From positions 1-64,000 of the forward strand of contig NZ_JAPSKN010000012.1 in assembly GCF_031181705.1 (NCBI RefSeq): a stretch of 64,000 bases of DNA, read 5' to 3'. This stretch comes from Streptomyces sp. GTDB taxonomy: Bacteria; Actinomycetota; Actinomycetes; Streptomycetales; Streptomycetaceae. Under the pieces are notes generated by a model. The model saw only the letters and a program-made list of their open reading frames with translations, was not told the origin of the DNA and did no database searches. Position numbers and translations under genes: made by a program. How positions within the stretch are numbered: position 1 is the stretch's first letter; every line of letters begins with the position of its first letter. This document shows positions 48,990 to 56,159 of the stretch, in pieces.

Positions 48990-50054
48990 CTACAGCACCT
49001 TCGAGGCGCCCACCGGCATGTCCCACAGGTTCTCGCGGGGCAGGCCCGTCTTCTCCCAGGCCGCCCGCACGCGCGTGAGGGGTTCCAGGACGGGCTCGGC
49101 CGACAGCACGAACGTGGCCCAGTGCATGGGGGCCATCCGAGTCGCTCCCAGGTCCTGGGCCGCCCGGACCGCTTCCTCCGGGTCGCAGTGGACGTCGCTG
49201 AGCCACCAGCGGGGGTCGTAGGCGCCGATGGGCAGCAGCGCCAGGTCGATGCCGGGGTAGCGGCGGCCGATGCGGGAGAACCAGTGGCCGTATCCCGTGT
49301 CGCCCGCGAAGTACACGCGTTGGCCGTCCTGGTCGGTGAGCACCCAGCCGCCCCAGAGGCTGTGGCAGGTGTCGGTGAGGGTGCGCTTGGACCAGTGGTG
49401 GGAGGGGACGAAGTCGAAGCGGACGCCGTTCAGTTCGGCCGCCTCCCACCAGTCGAGCTCGGTGACGCGGGTGAAGCGGCGGCGGTGGAACCAGCGGGCG
49501 AGCCCGGCCGGGACGAACACGGGGGTGTCGCGCGGGAGGCGGCGCAGGGTGGGGGCGTCCAGGTGGTCGTAGTGGTTGTGGCTGATGACGACGGCGTCGA
49601 CGCGCGGCAGGTCCTCCCAGGGGACGCCGACGGGCGTGATGCGGGCCGGGGTGCCGAGGATGCGGCGGGACCAGACCGGGTCGGTGAGGACCGTGAGCCC
49701 GCCGATCCTCAGGATCCAGCTGGCGTGTCCCGCCCAGGTGACCGCGACCGTGCGGGCGTCGACGCGGGGCAGCGGGGCCGGGGCGTAGGGCAGGCGGGGG
49801 ATGTCGGCCAGGCCCTCCGGGCCGGGTCTCACGGCGCCTTCGCGGGCGAAGCGGGCCATGGCCTTCAGGCCGGGCAGCGGGGCGGTCAGCCGGTCGTGGA
49901 AGGTGCGCGGCCACACCCGGCGCTCGGCCAGCGGCCGGGGTTGGGCCAGCGGCGGGTACGGGGCCGCCACGGGGGACGGGAGGGCCGCTGGTCCGGTGTC
50001 CCGGGTGGCCGGGCCGGTGGCCGTGCTGGTGGTCGACTCGGACTGCTGCGTCAT
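48990..50054 (-). CDS. MBL-fold hydrolase (NAPE-PLD/RomA-like)
   Basis: 354 residues. After a Ser/Thr/Pro-rich 35-residue lead the MBL domain has VTWAGHASWILRIGG, VVISHNHYDHLD (metal-binding motif), FVPSHHWSKRT, VYFAGDTGYGHWF and PMHWATFVLS. NAPE-PLD-like proteins hydrolyse phosphodiester bonds of lipids. The ATG at 50054 overlaps the stop of the aminotransferase-like gene by 4 bases, so both are translated together. Confidence 0.9.
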   Translation of the reverse strand: MTQQSESTTSTATGPATRDTGPAALPSPVAAPYPPLAQPRPLAERRVWPRTFHDRLTAPLPGLKAMARFAREGAVRPGPEGLADIPRLPYAPAPLPRVDARTVAVTWAGHASWILRIGGLTVLTDPVWSRRILGTPARITPVGVPWEDLPRVDAVVISHNHYDHLDAPTLRRLPRDTPVFVPAGLARWFHRRRFTRVTELDWWEAAELNGVRFDFVPSHHWSKRTLTDTCHSLWGGWVLTDQDGQRVYFAGDTGYGHWFSRIGRRYPGIDLALLPIGAYDPRWWLSDVHCDPEEAVRAAQDLGATRMAPMHWATFVLSAEPVLEPLTRVRAAWEKTGLPRENLWDMPVGASKVL

Positions 50055-51298
50055 CGCGCAGGCTCCCCTCGCTGAGCGTCGTCGCGGAGATCGTCGAAGA
50101 CCGACTTCAGATGGATCAACGCGCGTTGCACGTGCGGCAGTTCCAACGGCGTGGGTGAGGTGAGGCATTCCGCGCGTTCGGTGTCGGAGCCGCCCATCAG
50201 TGCGCCGGTGGAGAGCCGCACGCGCGGGGCTTCGAGGCCGTCGCCGAAACGGTGGCCGCCCGGCGCGGGCATGCCGAGCCGGGCGCTGAGGAAGTCCTCC
50301 AGTTCCTGCGCGTCTCCGACGCCGTGCGCGGCCAGGGCGGGGCGCAGCGGGCCGAGGTCGGCGTACAGGTGACGGCCGGACCGCGGGGGCCGGGCGAGGG
50401 CGCCGGCGGAGACCACGGCGTCGTGCGCGGCGGCGGCCAGGCGTGCGTGCAGGCGCACGGCGGCGGTCACGCGCCCGGTGACCGGTCCGGGTTCCGCGAG
50501 GGCGTACCCGGCGGCCGCGGCGACCGGGGCGGCGACCCGCCCGTCGAGGGCCGTGAGCACGTCGAGCACGCGCGCGTGGAGGCCGTCGGCTTCGTCCCCG
50601 GCCGGGAAGCGGGCGACGGCGGCCGGCCAGCCGGGCGGGAGGAGGGCACCGGCCAGGTCCGAGACGACGACGACCCGGTCGGGCAGCATCTCGGCGGGGC
50701 TGAGCAGCACGGTGTCGTGCGGTTCGTGCAGGGTGTCGCGCCAGGTCTCGTCGCTGACCAGGTGCAGGCCCTGTCCCTGGGCGGCCTCGACGGTCTCGTG
50801 CAGCAGTTCGGGCGGGGCCACGGTGGCCGTGGGGTCGTCGGCGACGGACAGCACCAGCAGCCGCGGGTCGCCGCCCTCGGCACGGACCCGGCGCACGGTC
50901 TCCAGCAGGGCGTAGGGGTCGGGGACGCCGCCGCTCTCCGGCGGGGTCGGCACCTGGAAGGCGGGGCGCCCCAGCAGGCGTGCGTACGGCGCCCACCAGG
51001 CGGCGCAGGGTCTCGGCACGAGGACGTCGCCGCCGAGGGCCGCGGTCAGGGCGAGGAGCAGGGCGGGCGCGCCGGGGGCGGCGGCGACGCGGCCGGGGTC
51101 GCAGTGCAGTCCGCGCCGGTCCCAGTAGCCACAGGCGGCCTCGCGGAGGGCGGGGCCGCCGCCGACCGGCTCGTGGCCGCCGCGGGAGGCCGCCGACGCC
51201 AGCACGGCGGCCAGTTCCGGCAGCACGGGCAGGCCGTCCTCGGGGATCGACGGCCCGAACCGGACCGGGCCGTGGCCTTCCGGGTCCGTCCGCCGCAT
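50051..51298 (-). CDS. Aminotransferase-fold protein lacking the PLP lysine
   Basis: 415 residues with a class I/II aminotransferase plan: VGGGPALREAACGYW, PRPCAAWWAPYARLLG, LVLSVADDPTATV (NPTG-like), HLVSDETWRD (Asp/Glu) and the carboxylate Arg near PRVRLSTGAL. The stretch VVVVSDLAGALLPPGW occupies the place of the canonical SxSKxxxxPGxR, yet has Ala where Lys should be and no Arg. The whole chain has only one lysine, near the C-terminus (HLKSVFDD), which cannot serve. So a pseudoenzyme or binding protein is likely. RBS GGAGG 5 bases before ATG. Confidence 0.8.
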   Translation of the reverse strand: MRRTDPEGHGPVRFGPSIPEDGLPVLPELAAVLASAASRGGHEPVGGGPALREAACGYWDRRGLHCDPGRVAAAPGAPALLLALTAALGGDVLVPRPCAAWWAPYARLLGRPAFQVPTPPESGGVPDPYALLETVRRVRAEGGDPRLLVLSVADDPTATVAPPELLHETVEAAQGQGLHLVSDETWRDTLHEPHDTVLLSPAEMLPDRVVVVSDLAGALLPPGWPAAVARFPAGDEADGLHARVLDVLTALDGRVAAPVAAAAGYALAEPGPVTGRVTAAVRLHARLAAAAHDAVVSAGALARPPRSGRHLYADLGPLRPALAAHGVGDAQELEDFLSARLGMPAPGGHRFGDGLEAPRVRLSTGALMGGSDTERAECLTSPTPLELPHVQRALIHLKSVFDDLRDDAQRGEPAR

Positions 51299-51488
51299 CC
51301 GTACCTCCGCAGTGACTCGTGCCGCCGTGTCGGGTCGCCTTCGGCGCCTGCGCCGTCCGCTGCCCGGTGGTCCGTACGGTGCGGCTCGTGCCCTCGGCCA
51401 CTGAGTACCCACAGGACAGCCGCCGCATGAGCCCCGCCCGGGTCGTGACGGTCACAGCATGAGCGGGGCGGGGCCGGGGAAGCGGGGG

Positions 51489-52550: not shown

Positions 52551-54344
52551 ATGAGCAGCAAGGTCTCCGACCACGTCCTGCGCAGGCTGCGCGAGTGGGG
52601 GGTGGAGCACGTCTTCGGCTACCCGGGTGACGGCATCAACGGCCTGCTCGCGGCGTGGGGCCGGGCCGAGAACGAGCCGCGGTTCGTGCAGTCGCGGCAC
52701 GAGGAGATGTCGGCGCTGCAGGCCGTCGGCTACGCCAAGTTCAGCGGCCGTCTCGGGGTGTGCGCCGCGACGTCGGGGCCGGGCGCGATCCATCTGCTGA
52801 ACGGCCTGTACGACGCCAAGCTGGACCACGTGCCGGTGCTGGCGATCGTCGGGCAGACGCACCGCAGCGCGATGGGCGGCTCCTACCAGCAGGAGGTGGA
52901 CCTGCACACGCTGTTCAAGGACGTCGCCTCGGACTTCGTGGAGACGGTGACGGTGCCCGAGCAGCTGCCGAACGTGCTGGACCGGGCGATCCGCACCGCG
53001 TACGCGCGGCGCTGCCCGACCGCGGTCATCATCCCCGGCGACGTGCAGGACCTCGACTACGCGCCGCCGTCGCACGAGTTCAAGATGGTGCCGTCCAGTC
53101 TGGACCGCAGTGGGTGGACGGCGGTTCCGTCCGACGACTCGGTGCGGCGGGCGGCCGAGATCCTCAACTCCGGTGACAAGGTGGCCATCCTGGTCGGCCA
53201 GGGCGCGGCCGGCGCGCGGGCCGAGGTGGAGCGGATCGCCGAACTGCTCGGCGCGGGCGTCGCCAAGGCGCTGCTCGGCAAGGACGTCATCAGCGACGAA
53301 CTGCCCTACGTCACCGGCTCGATCGGCCTGCTGGGCACGCGCCCGTCGTACGAGCTGATGCGGGACTGCGACACGCTGCTGACGATCGGCTCGTCGTTCC
53401 CCTACTCCCAGTTCCTGCCGGAGTTCGGCAAGGCGCGGGGCGTGCAGATCGACATCGACCCGCACATGATCGGGATGCGCTACCCCTACGAGGTCAACCT
53501 GGTCGGCGACGCCAAGGTGACCCTGGAGCGGCTGATCCCGCTGATCGAGGCAGGCCGCGGCCGTGAGTGGTACGACACGGTGTGCGACAACGTGGCGCAC
53601 TGGCGTGACGTCATGGAGCGCCGGGCCGCGCTGGAGGCGGATCCGGTCAACCCCGAGCACGTGGCCCGGGCGCTGGACCCGCTGCTGCCGGACAACGCGA
53701 TCGTCACCTCCGACTCGGGCTCGACGGCGAACTGGTACGCGCGGCACCTGACCATGCGGGCGGGCATGCGCGGCTCGCTCTCCGGCACGCTGGCGACGAT
53801 GGGCTGCGCGGTGCCGTACGTGATCGGTGCGAAGTTCGCGCATCCGGACCGGCCGGCGATCGCGCTGGTCGGGGACGGTGCGATGCAGATGAACGGCATG
53901 GCGGAGCTGATCACCGCGGCGAAGTACCGCCACCTGTGGGACGATCCGCGGCTGGTGATCGGGGTGTGGAACAACCGCGATCTGAACCAGGTCACCTGGG
54001 AGCTGCGGGCCATGGGGGGCGCGCCCTCGTTCCTGCCGTCGCAGGAGCTGCCTGACGTGCAGTACGCGGCGTTCGCGCGGTCGCTGGGACTGACCGGCAT
54101 CCGGGTGGAGAAGCCGCAGGACGTCGAGGCGGCCTGGCGCACCGCGCTGGAGGCGGACGGTCCCGCGGTGGTCGAGTTCCTGACCGACCCGGCCGTCCCA
54201 CCGGTCCCGCCGCACGCCACCTGGGAGCAGATGGAGGCGACCGCCGCGTCGCTGCTGAAGGGTGACGCGGACCGGGGACCGGTGGTCAGGCGCGGCTTCA
54301 GGGCGAAGGTGCAGGAGTTCCTGCCGGGGCGGGAGAAGAAGTAG
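52551..54344 (+). CDS. Thiamine pyrophosphate-requiring enzyme (pyruvate oxidase/acetolactate-synthase family)
   Basis: 597 residues with the three TPP-enzyme domains. Catalytic Glu in SRHEEMSALQA; central domain GDKVAILVGQGA; TPP motif VGDGAMQMNGMAEL to WNNRDLNQ. The closest shape is PoxB-like pyruvate oxidase: VEHVFGYPGDGINGLL and the segment GSTANWYARHL. It probably decarboxylates pyruvate or another 2-oxo acid, with or without FAD. ATG follows GGGAGGTC. No small regulatory subunit gene (ilvN) is nearby, arguing against acetolactate synthase. Confidence 0.87.
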   Translation: MSSKVSDHVLRRLREWGVEHVFGYPGDGINGLLAAWGRAENEPRFVQSRHEEMSALQAVGYAKFSGRLGVCAATSGPGAIHLLNGLYDAKLDHVPVLAIVGQTHRSAMGGSYQQEVDLHTLFKDVASDFVETVTVPEQLPNVLDRAIRTAYARRCPTAVIIPGDVQDLDYAPPSHEFKMVPSSLDRSGWTAVPSDDSVRRAAEILNSGDKVAILVGQGAAGARAEVERIAELLGAGVAKALLGKDVISDELPYVTGSIGLLGTRPSYELMRDCDTLLTIGSSFPYSQFLPEFGKARGVQIDIDPHMIGMRYPYEVNLVGDAKVTLERLIPLIEAGRGREWYDTVCDNVAHWRDVMERRAALEADPVNPEHVARALDPLLPDNAIVTSDSGSTANWYARHLTMRAGMRGSLSGTLATMGCAVPYVIGAKFAHPDRPAIALVGDGAMQMNGMAELITAAKYRHLWDDPRLVIGVWNNRDLNQVTWELRAMGGAPSFLPSQELPDVQYAAFARSLGLTGIRVEKPQDVEAAWRTALEADGPAVVEFLTDPAVPPVPPHATWEQMEATAASLLKGDADRGPVVRRGFRAKVQEFLPGREKK

Positions 54345-54483
54345 CGGCCGCGGTGGCGGGGGCAGCGCCGGCCGGTTCGCGCCGGCCGGTGTCGCCCTGT
54401 GGCAGCAGCAGTTCCTCGTATCGGCCCAAGCCCAGCACCACCCCGAGCATCAGCAGCGGAATGAGCACAGTGAGCAACGCCAT
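54298..54483 (-). CDS. Small single-TM protein
   Basis: 61 residues. One N-terminal hydrophobic helix (MALLTVLIPLLMLGVVLGLG), then RYEELLLPQ and an Ala/Pro/Thr-rich tail. GAAGGAC precedes the ATG. The tail overlaps the end of the TPP enzyme gene by 47 bases on the other strand. Function unknown; the low-complexity tail reduces certainty. Confidence 0.55.
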   Translation of the reverse strand: MALLTVLIPLLMLGVVLGLGRYEELLLPQGDTGRREPAGAAPATAAATSSPAPAGTPAPSP

Positions 54484-54583
54484 GGCGTGTCCTTCCCCAG
54501 GGAGGTGTGGGGGGTGCGGTCCGGGTCTCCCGCAGCCGGTGGCGCAAACCGGGGCGCTCCGCGGATCCCGGGCCGCCGGATCC

Positions 54584-54608
54584 GTGTCGGCTCCCGGTGT
54601 TCGGGTAC
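54584..54608 (+). promoter_or_regulatory. Sigma-B-like promoter for the DUF2795 gene
   Basis: GTGT, 15 bases, GGGTAC fits the Streptomyces sigma-B consensus (GNNT-N14-16-GGGTAY). It lies 34 bases before the DUF2795 start. The same GTGT-N15-GGGTAC layout recurs at 56537-56561. Confidence 0.5.
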
Positions 54609-54641
54609 GCGGTGCGGACCCCCGAAGGTCTGGAGGGAGAC

Positions 54642-55043
54642 ATGCAGCGAGGCAGCGACCGGCTGAGCGTCCACCGGGACGACGAGATGAAGCACGAACT
54701 GCAGGGTCTGCTCAGGTCCGGGCATCCCACGCGCAGTGAGGAGTGGCACGACCCGGAGCCGGCCGCCGAGGACGACCCCGACGTCGCATACGGGCCGGTG
54801 ACGCCGGGCCGGGGGCCGACGTCCCTGGAGTCGGTGCGGCTGGACCTGGCGCGGATCCTGGGCCGCAGGGCGTTCCCCGCGAGTGCGCGCGAGCTGGCCC
54901 GCGAGGTGCGCGGCCGTCAGGCGCCCGACGCGCTCGTCGAGGCGCTGGAGCGGCTGCCGCACCAGGAGCGCTACGGCAATGTCCAGGAGCTGGCCGAGGC
55001 CCTGGTCCGGGCCCGGGAGACCGGTCCGGAGGAGTACGCGTAG
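54642..55043 (+). CDS. DUF2795 domain protein
   Basis: 133 residues. A charged N-terminus (ELQGLLRSGHPTRSEEWHDPEP) leads to the DUF2795 helical domain (ESVRLDLARILGRRAFPASARELAREV, LVEALERLPHQERYGNVQELAEAL). Function of the domain is unknown; it occurs in stress-regulated actinobacterial genes. GGAGGGAGAC before ATG and a sigma-B-like promoter upstream fit that. Confidence 0.82.
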   Translation: MQRGSDRLSVHRDDEMKHELQGLLRSGHPTRSEEWHDPEPAAEDDPDVAYGPVTPGRGPTSLESVRLDLARILGRRAFPASARELAREVRGRQAPDALVEALERLPHQERYGNVQELAEALVRARETGPEEYA

Positions 55044-55052
55044 GGGCCGTGC

Positions 55053-55095
55053 GGGGGCACCGCGGCCGCGCCGGCGGGTGCGCCGCGGTGCCCCC
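55053..55095. terminator. Strong hairpin between DUF2795 and CBS genes
   Basis: GGGGGCACCGCGGC (55053-55066) pairs perfectly with GCCGCGGTGCCCCC (55082-55095), 15-base loop; one more C-G pair extends it. It ends 28 bases before the CBS gene start and probably separates the transcripts or attenuates. Confidence 0.6.
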
Positions 55096-55123
55096 GTCGG
55101 CCCGGCAACGGACGGAGACACCG

Positions 55124-55555
55124 GTGAAGGCCGAGTTGGTGAAGGACGTGATGACTGCGGGTGTGGTCGCCGTGCGCCCGGACGCCTCGCTCGTCGAGGC
55201 GGCGCAGCTGATGCGCACGCAGAACATCGGCGATGTGGTGGTGGCCGACGGGCAGGACGTGGTCGGGGTGCTCACCGACCGTGACATCGCGGTGCGGGCC
55301 GTCGCGGACGGCGCCGACCCCATGACGGTGAGCGCCCGGGCCGTGTGCACCAAGAACCCGGTCACCGTGACGCCGGACGACCGGGTGACGACGGCGGTGG
55401 CGCTGATGCGCGAGCACGCCGTGCGCCGGCTGCCGGTGGTGGAGAACGGACTGCCGGTCGGCATCGTCAGCCTCGGCGACGTGGCCGAGGCCGAGGACCC
55501 CGCGTCGGCGCTGGCGGACATCAGCCGCGCCGAGCCGGACGCCCGCGGCAGCTAG
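55124..55555 (+). CDS. CBS domain protein
   Basis: 143 residues made of two CBS motifs (VKDVMTAGVVAVRPDASLVEAA and VCTKNPVTVTPDDRVTTAVALM), each with GVLTDRDI or GIVSLGDV ends. CBS pairs bind adenosine ligands such as AMP or ATP and sense energy state. GTG at 55124 behind CGGAGACACC. In this stress group it may act as a sensor; partner unknown. Confidence 0.9.
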   Translation: MKAELVKDVMTAGVVAVRPDASLVEAAQLMRTQNIGDVVVADGQDVVGVLTDRDIAVRAVADGADPMTVSARAVCTKNPVTVTPDDRVTTAVALMREHAVRRLPVVENGLPVGIVSLGDVAEAEDPASALADISRAEPDARGS

Positions 55556-55616
55556 CCCGGATCCGGGCAGCGGAGCCGAAGCAGCAGACAAGCAACAGGA
55601 AAGGACGTCGAACACC

Positions 55617-56159
55617 ATGCGTATCGCGTTTCTGGTCGCACCCGAGGGCGTCGAGCAGGTCGAGCTGACCGATCCGTGGCAGGCGGCGAAGGACGCCGGT
55701 CACGAGCCCGTGCTGGTGTCGACGAAGGAGGGGGAGATCCAGGCGTTCAACCACCTCGACAAGGCGGACACCTTCCCGGTCGACGAGGTCGTGGGTGAGG
55801 TGTCACCCGGTTCGTTCGGCGCGCTGGTGCTGCCGGGCGGCGTGGCCAACCCGGACTTCCTGCGCATGGACGGCGAGGCCGTCGCGTTCGTGCGCGACTT
55901 CTTCGAGCGGGGCCGCCCCGTCGCGGCGATCTGCCACGCGCCGTGGACGCTGGTCGAGGCGGACGTCGTGCGCGGCCGGGTGCTGACCTCGTGGCCGAGC
56001 CTGCGGACGGACATCCGCAACGCGGGCGGCACCTGGGTCGACGAGCGGGTGAAGGTCTGCGACCACGGGGCGAACAAGCTGGTCACCAGCCGCAAGCCGG
56101 ACGATCTGAAGGTGTTCTGCGAGACGTTCCTCGACGTCTTCGCCCGCGAGGCCGCCTGA
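55617..56159 (+). CDS. DJ-1/PfpI family protein (class I glutamine amidotransferase-like)
   Basis: 180 residues. Nucleophile elbow with Cys in AAICHAPWTLVEA (about residue 105, followed by His) and Glu in the N-terminal part match the YhbO/PfpI subgroup of general stress proteins, which have been linked to deglycase or protease activity. TSWPSLRTDIRNAGGTWVDE is the typical following region. ATG preceded by AAAGGACG. Confidence 0.92.
   Translation: MRIAFLVAPEGVEQVELTDPWQAAKDAGHEPVLVSTKEGEIQAFNHLDKADTFPVDEVVGEVSPGSFGALVLPGGVANPDFLRMDGEAVAFVRDFFERGRPVAAICHAPWTLVEADVVRGRVLTSWPSLRTDIRNAGGTWVDERVKVCDHGANKLVTSRKPDDLKVFCETFLDVFAREAA

Follow-up and report, generated by a model that had tools for sequence, protein, structure and literature searches.

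A conserved Streptomyces aminotransferase-fold protein that lacks the Schiff-base lysine, a probable pseudoenzyme encoded beside a NAPE-PLD-like hydrolase

Analysis of a stretch of 64,000 nucleotides from Streptomyces sp. (assembly GCF_031181705.1, contig NZ_JAPSKN010000012.1, positions 1 to 64,000; referred to as the window throughout) revealed a gene, P1, whose product has the fold of class I aminotransferases dependent on pyridoxal 5'-phosphate (PLP) and does not possess the lysine that forms the Schiff base with this cofactor. P1 lies directly ahead of P2, the gene for a metallo-beta-lactamase (MBL)-fold hydrolase related to human NAPE-PLD. The lysine was lost once, in the whole clade to which P1 belongs, and judged by its residues P1 cannot use PLP in the known way, so that it is very likely a PLP-independent pseudoenzyme by descent. 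With about an even chance, it would now serve as a non-catalytic, ligand-binding protein or sensor beside P2, without being an obligate subunit of it. The features concerned are the following.

50051..51298, minus strand: P1, aminotransferase-fold probable pseudoenzyme, 415 amino acids, ATG start
48990..50054, minus strand: P2, NAPE-PLD-like MBL-fold hydrolase, 354 amino acids
50051..50054, minus strand: ATGA, the 4 bases in which the P1 stop and the P2 start overlap
50648..50650, minus strand: codon of Gly217, which alignments place under the Schiff-base lysine
50657..50659, minus strand: codon of Asp214, a new acidic residue three before the lysine position according to the family alignment
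50750..50752, minus strand: codon of Asp183, presumably the Asp facing the pyridine nitrogen, kept in 174/174 homologues
51405..51410, minus strand: GGGTAC upstream of P1, possibly a promoter -10 element, present mainly in the window's own clade

P1 matches the Pfam family Aminotran_1_2 (PF00155) above its cut-off (E = 5e-10), and a phmmer comparison with PDB sequences matched the aspartate aminotransferase (AspAT) from Thermus (E = 2e-13). When compared to the named aminotransferase families of NCBIfam, none of the 25 best of 32 rows was at its cut-off for P1, the best match being PRK07550 with 42 bits (cut-off 366), and GntC giving 37.5 bits (cut-off 415). An AlphaFold2 model of P1 had a mean predicted local distance difference test score (pLDDT) of 92.3 and a predicted template modelling score of 0.90. 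In the five best rows it superposed on class I aminotransferases with Z values of 40.7-41.6 over 346-357 residues and root mean square deviations of 2.0-2.2 Å; the closest entry was 8wkj (Z 41.6, 346 aligned residues, 2.0 Å), prephenate aminotransferases were found at Z 40.9, and Foldseek retrieved Thermus AspAT with an E value of 1.6e-20. According to the model, P1 therefore has a complete aminotransferase fold in which the large and the small domain of fold-type I are both present. An earlier note, made from the sequence of the window alone, had read the chain as built on the aminotransferase plan, which Pfam and the superposition of the model bear out, and had counted a single lysine near the C-terminus, which is K398. 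The same note placed an alanine at the Schiff-base position and was off by one residue, since in the phmmer alignment to Thermus AspAT it is Gly217 of 'SDLAGALLPPGW' that aligns with the lysine of the enzyme; the family alignment with lysine-containing relatives likewise puts Gly217 under the lysine, with Ala216 and Ala218 at its sides.

The scarcity of lysine was considered as evidence in its own right and rejected, because no lysine or only one was likewise counted in the products of 6 of 71 genes (330-520 amino acids) predicted within 400 kb from a related genome, P1's own orthologue being among the six. A link to pupylation was set aside as well, as lysine deserts are described as common in Actinobacteria anyway in passages of PMC10665810.

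In an alignment of 193 distinct homologues, 178 are at least 44.4% identical to P1 and the remaining 15 at most 42.3%. None of the 178 has a lysine at position 217, where there is glycine in 163, alanine in 11, glutamate in two and a gap in two (L119 and L140), whereas all of the 15 more distant proteins have it. The earlier note had proposed to check the loss by alignment and had named intact lysines in the homologues of a singly mutated strain as the refuting case; the clade-wide loss is the opposite of that case, and it excludes an isolated mutation or a sequencing error in this strain. For other positions, counts were made in the 174 of the 178 homologues that have a residue at 217 and a length of at least 385 amino acids; as this set was chosen by Gly, Ala or Glu at 217, the lysine itself was counted only in the set of 178. 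All of the 174 proteins are free of lysine between residues 210 and 224. Eighty-three of them have no lysine at all, 77 have one, 10 have two and four have three, so in about half of the clade a Schiff base with lysine is impossible anywhere in the protein.

Residues around the former cofactor were switched as well. The roles given here to P1 positions are presumably those known for AspAT, while the correspondence of positions comes from the alignments. The residues by which PLP aminotransferases bind the phosphate, the loop Ser and the Arg following the lysine, are replaced in P1 by Ala77 and Pro225 (S77 to A in 154/174, R225 to P in 169/174). In addition, K78 has become P in 142/174, W99 has become A in 137/174 or P in 29/174, N155 is D in 173/174, Y186 is W in 166/174, Y310 is H in 168/174 and Y42 is lost in the lysine-less clade. 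Position 214 is D in 170/174, in contrast to 14 of the 14 lysine-bearing relatives used as comparison group for cofactor contacts, which have G, and L248 is newly fixed (174/174). Retained are D154, D183 and R361 (174/174 each) and R359 (171/174), of which we take D183 to be the Asp that faces the pyridine nitrogen and R359 to be the Arg that binds the substrate carboxylate in aminotransferases. When compared to class I/II aminotransferases (PF00155; Thermus AspAT 1bjw and Arabidopsis prephenate aminotransferase 5wmh), P1 thus keeps the whole fold together with D183, D154, E184 and R359, and lacks the Schiff-base lysine, the phosphate contacts and what are presumably the Asn, Tyr and Trp cofactor contacts. 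Of the features expected for a PLP-dependent enzyme of this class, the predicted fold and the pyridine-nitrogen Asp (D183) are present, and the lysine and the phosphate-binding residues are absent.

The ratio of nonsynonymous to synonymous substitution rates (dN/dS; Nei-Gojobori) indicated that both genes are under purifying selection, the median over 51 disjoint pairs being 0.21 for either gene, and the values over all 641 pairs kept being 0.22 (P1) and 0.18 (P2). For seven P1 sequences from genomes without P2, dN/dS values to their nearest relatives were 0.20-0.38, compared to 0.19-0.42 in matched controls; P1 is under similar constraint where P2 is missing. As is characteristic of a pseudoenzyme, therefore, catalytic residues have been lost throughout an orthologous clade that is under purifying selection.

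The lysine-less proteins formed one clade both in a quick tree of 75 proteins, in which long outgroup branches were flagged, and in a careful tree of 45 proteins (support 100/100), from which 24 switched state-defining columns had been removed and in which one of the three outgroup rows was long. This clade is nested within the lysine-bearing family as the sister of a sub-family that includes members with a KamA-like neighbour (node support 99/96), and it sits on a long stem with 0.72 changes per column. A single nested clade on a long stem indicates one event of lysine loss, accompanied by a burst of change. By sequence, then, the loss is clade-wide, single and derived, and the conserved pseudoenzyme suggested by the earlier note is upheld at this level.

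The nearest lysine-bearing relatives constitute a separate paralogous family which is also present in this genome (C224:15738-16883; 43% identity to P1), on another contig and in a gene cluster of the secondary-metabolite type. Members of this actinobacterial family are 36-43% identical to P1, have motifs outside the active site in common with it, and carry GLSKSLALGGWR and DNPTG, whereas the P1 clade lacks the lysine; unlike for P1, P2 adjoins the paralogue in none of 14 loci. The window's genus is among the 21, out of 114 in the class sample, whose genomes gave matches to the lysine-bearing family. The paralogue of this genome is accompanied by genes for a VinK_C acyltransferase, a KamA-like radical S-adenosylmethionine protein, an adenosine monophosphate (AMP)-ligase and an alpha/beta hydrolase (L277:5188-11574, contig C224), and the same cluster genes plus polyketide synthase genes occur in genome G592 (L280). 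The KamA-like protein of L280 matches TIGR00238 with an E value of 7e-35, below the cut-off of that model, and its counterpart in this genome is 69% identical to it. Among 34 loci of the lysine-bearing family that were scanned, many of them with short flanks, a KamA-like neighbour was found in 10 and a VinK-like neighbour in four, two of the latter being the same gene, so this cluster type does not characterize the family as a whole. The cluster of this genome looks like those described for beta-amino-acid macrolactams, for which VinK and aminomutases are treated in passages of PMC11284099 and PMC10662134; within those passages, no aminotransferase of the lysine-bearing family was found.

P1 is widespread in its genus. 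At a threshold of E <= 1e-10, 279 of the 295 genomes sampled from the window's genus gave a match; when the 30 with the weakest matches were scanned again, G037, G120, G186, G198 and G271 proved to have only the lysine-bearing paralogue at 40-43% identity, which leaves about 274 of 295 genomes as carriers of P1, some of them with fragments at contig ends. Of the best 80 of 283 named GTDB loci, 79 were titled Streptomyces and one 'Actinobacteria bacterium'. At the same threshold no match was found in the 16 genomes of other genera of the order sample. In the class sample, 66 of 296 genomes matched at 1e-20, including 38 outside the genus with identities of 36-42%, and all of the 20 among these 38 that were fetched have the lysine motif. 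That reading comes from four genomes outside the genus in the alignment and from 23 of 23 further frames, 18 of which are from outside the genus (two of the genomes being also among the four) and five from within it, the same gene of this genome being counted twice among the five.

P1 and P2 are usually neighbours. Among the 161 P1 loci for which 1300 bases or more of downstream sequence were available, P2 followed directly on the same strand in 154, its start being located between -48 and +289 bases from the P1 stop. The P1 stop carries ATGA in 130 of these 154 loci, as in the window, where the 4-base overlap that the earlier note had described is located at 50051-50054, and in 128 an ATG (126) or GTG (2) overlaps the stop and begins a frame that stays open across the metal motif of P2. 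Between loci, the pairwise identities of the two proteins correlate with r = 0.87, without correction for phylogeny. Nine genomes with P1 have no P2 orthologue anywhere (G056, G314, G327, G174, G402, G045, G350, G145 and G360) and hold only P2 relatives of about 40% identity; two of the nine, G145 and G350, have a short P1 frame, and G145 has also lost the site. Where P2 was lost, a second MBL gene of the locus was still near P1 in seven of eight loci examined, L190 being different. P2 without P1 was encountered in G313, G373, G156, G288 and G121, and in G313 and G373 the neighbourhood was also searched. A table of 121 genomes, which includes fragmented assemblies with several of the losses among them and carries no phylogenetic correction, gave 103 genomes with both genes, 10 with P1 only, five with P2 only and three with neither (Fisher p = 0.04). 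We had considered co-occurrence as proof of a module and regard it as weak, because both genes are near-universal and the p value lacks phylogenetic control. From the genomes with one gene only and from the constraint on P1 where P2 is missing, it follows that there is no strict dependence of either gene on its neighbour. The P1-P2 pair is a genus-wide operon and not an obligate complex; of the new module proposed in the earlier note, the adjacency stands, while the 10 and five genomes of 121 with P1 only or P2 only speak against a unit whose parts need each other.

The assignment of P2 as a NAPE-PLD-like hydrolase, also made in the earlier note, is borne out by sequence, predicted fold and metal ligands. 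P2 matches human NAPE-PLD (PDB 4qn9) with an E value of 5e-58, and its predicted structure has a mean pLDDT of 80.9, with residues 1-20 and about 50-80 being of low confidence. Against the NAPE-PLD entries 8p90 and 4qn9, the model gave Z values of 33.4 (model residues 33-354) and 32.5 (model residues 49-354), with identities of 37% over 301 and 39% over 287 aligned residues, respectively, whereas the next entry was at Z 24.3 (model residues 92-354). In the model, the MBL fold of P2 is therefore closest to NAPE-PLD, including the part that precedes the MBL core. Seven positions that we take to be metal ligands, in line with the alignment to 4qn9 (H159, H161, D163, H164, H220, D252 and H311), are invariant in 204 of 204 homologues.

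How might P1 work? Descended from a lysine-containing family of class I aminotransferases with its whole fold kept, P1 has acquired D155, D214, H310, L248 and P225 at positions of the former active site, beside the retained D154, D183, R359 and R361. Such newly fixed residues argue for a new function rather than for decay, and the gain and fixation of two acidic residues and a His, together with the retained carboxylate Arg, suggests that the old site binds another ligand. This ligand might be small and bear a carboxylate and/or an amine, with R359 and the cluster of acidic residues keeping it in place and no Schiff base being formed. P1 would then bind or sense it without catalysis, serving the same physiological process as P2; translation of the two genes is probably coupled, and P1 would not be an obligate subunit of P2. 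Some points weigh against this proposal. That D154, D155, D183, D214 and H310 face one cavity is derived from homology, and ligand binding is deduced only from conserved positions. P1 is missing in G313 and G373 although P2 is kept, and L140 and L119, which are degenerate members of the clade, do not have the site region. Furthermore, P1 evolves faster than P2, with mean pairwise identities of 74% and 81%, respectively, as a weakly constrained protein would.

Other explanations were considered. P1 might be an obligate regulatory or structural subunit of P2, the aminotransferase fold being a mere scaffold in one complex, which would account for the adjacency in 154/161 P1 loci as opposed to 0/14 paralogue loci, for the stop/start overlap in 128/154 loci and for the uncorrected correlation of identities. 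We consider this unlikely, as nine genomes have P1 (shortened in two) without a P2 orthologue, as the 10 and five genomes with one gene only (with the reservations given above for p = 0.04) point the same way, and as absence of P2 does not go along with a higher dN/dS in P1. A similarly unlikely alternative is that P1 became a new PLP-independent enzyme, in which the Asp cluster and His310 would provide a metal site or acid/base catalysis on a substrate held by R359. The gained residues N155D (173/174), G214D (170/174) and Y310H (168/174) and the retained D154, D183, R359 and R361 would fit this idea as well, and fixed new residues are unlike decay; however, site geometry, metal and substrate are all extrapolated from conserved residues, and we know of no fold-type I enzyme that works in this manner, which counts against it. 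A bolder and rather improbable suggestion combines these elements: the Asp cluster (D154, D155, D183 and D214), His310 and Arg359/361 might form a PLP-independent site for a metal or a cationic amine, in a sensor or an enzyme that acts beside P2 within a pathway of N-acyl-lipids or amino-lipids, as yet undescribed, that Streptomyces would have in common.

Three further explanations are much less probable. ColD-type dehydratases are fold-type I proteins that have His in place of the lysine and keep their cofactor site, and by analogy P1 might still use PLP or pyridoxamine 5'-phosphate (PMP), as D183 and R359 are kept. However, the cofactor site of P1 is dismantled: the phosphate contacts are replaced (S77A in 154/174, R225P in 169/174), the negative Asp214 is located three residues before the lysine position, N155, Y186, Y42 and W99 are lost, and there is no His at 217, a His occurring somewhere within residues 210-224 in 20/174, so that use of PLP or PMP is highly unlikely. 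Serine palmitoyltransferase offers another precedent, since its subunit SPTLC1/LCB1 is a lysine-less PLP-fold protein that forms a heterodimer with an active paralogue. Like SPTLC1, P1 has been retained after lysine loss, and this genome encodes a lysine-containing paralogue of 43% identity that could be the active partner of a dead P1. In contrast to SPTLC1, no active paralogue is linked to P1, as a frame with the lysine motif was found in 0 of 178 fetched stretches around clade loci (median 5.2 kb; the rest of each genome is not excluded by this count), and the paralogue of this genome is on another contig within its secondary-metabolite-type cluster; we give this analogy hardly any credence. 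Finally, P1 could be a decaying remnant that hitch-hikes before P2, which would agree with its faster divergence and with the P1 genes that are broken, degenerate or missing in some genomes (in G005, P1 is in pieces). This is contradicted already by the constraint, with dN/dS values of about 0.21 and full-length frames in 174 distinct homologues, and also by the newly fixed residues and by the constraint where P2 is absent, and it would come as a great surprise.

Within 260 bases upstream of P1, 115 of 169 loci contain GGGTA[C/T], compared to 21.5 expected from shuffles. It is present in only 21 of 59 dereplicated loci, and the excess is not independent because the loci are related. A two-part promoter pattern was also tried and was found in 17/169 loci, with 2.9 expected. 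Several other members of the clade have CGTATAAAGGGC upstream of P1 in common. GGGTAC and CGTATAAAGGGC could be promoter or regulator sites, and a promoter for a stress sigma factor upstream of P1 is a lead, not a result.

Further genes surround the pair. On the plus strand of the window, a second MBL-fold gene and a gene for a VTT-domain (DedA-type) protein are convergent to P1-P2 (47434-48905), and genes for a pyruvate-oxidase-type enzyme dependent on thiamine pyrophosphate, a CBS-domain protein and a DJ-1/PfpI protein are located upstream of the pair (52560-56159). In G313, which lacks P1, the flanking genes of P2 encode a TetR-type regulator and, by sequence only, a methyltransferase-like protein (L278:3446-6196), neighbours that may point to the regulation of P2.

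In the full-text literature on lysine-less or pseudoenzyme aminotransferases, nothing on P1 was found among the matches listed (15 of 23 in the largest result), most subscription journals being outside this search; in the matching passages of PMC6522883, 'pseudoenzyme' appears only in the title of a reference on another protein. Regarding bacterial NAPE-PLD homologues, none of the matches listed (best 15 of 291) dealt with P2.

Pfam labels P1 as an aminotransferase, yet its residues preclude the known aminotransferase mechanism. With about 274 carriers among 295 sampled genomes, P1 is close to being a core gene in a genus that is a major producer of antibiotics, and it probably has a new job that is not that of an aminotransferase. 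It offers a clean case of a PLP enzyme turning into something else, with a single origin, a short list of switched residues and a lysine-bearing sister family that still exists within the genus, this genome included. The presence of a bacterial NAPE-PLD relative beside P1 raises the question of N-acyl-lipid metabolism in actinobacteria.

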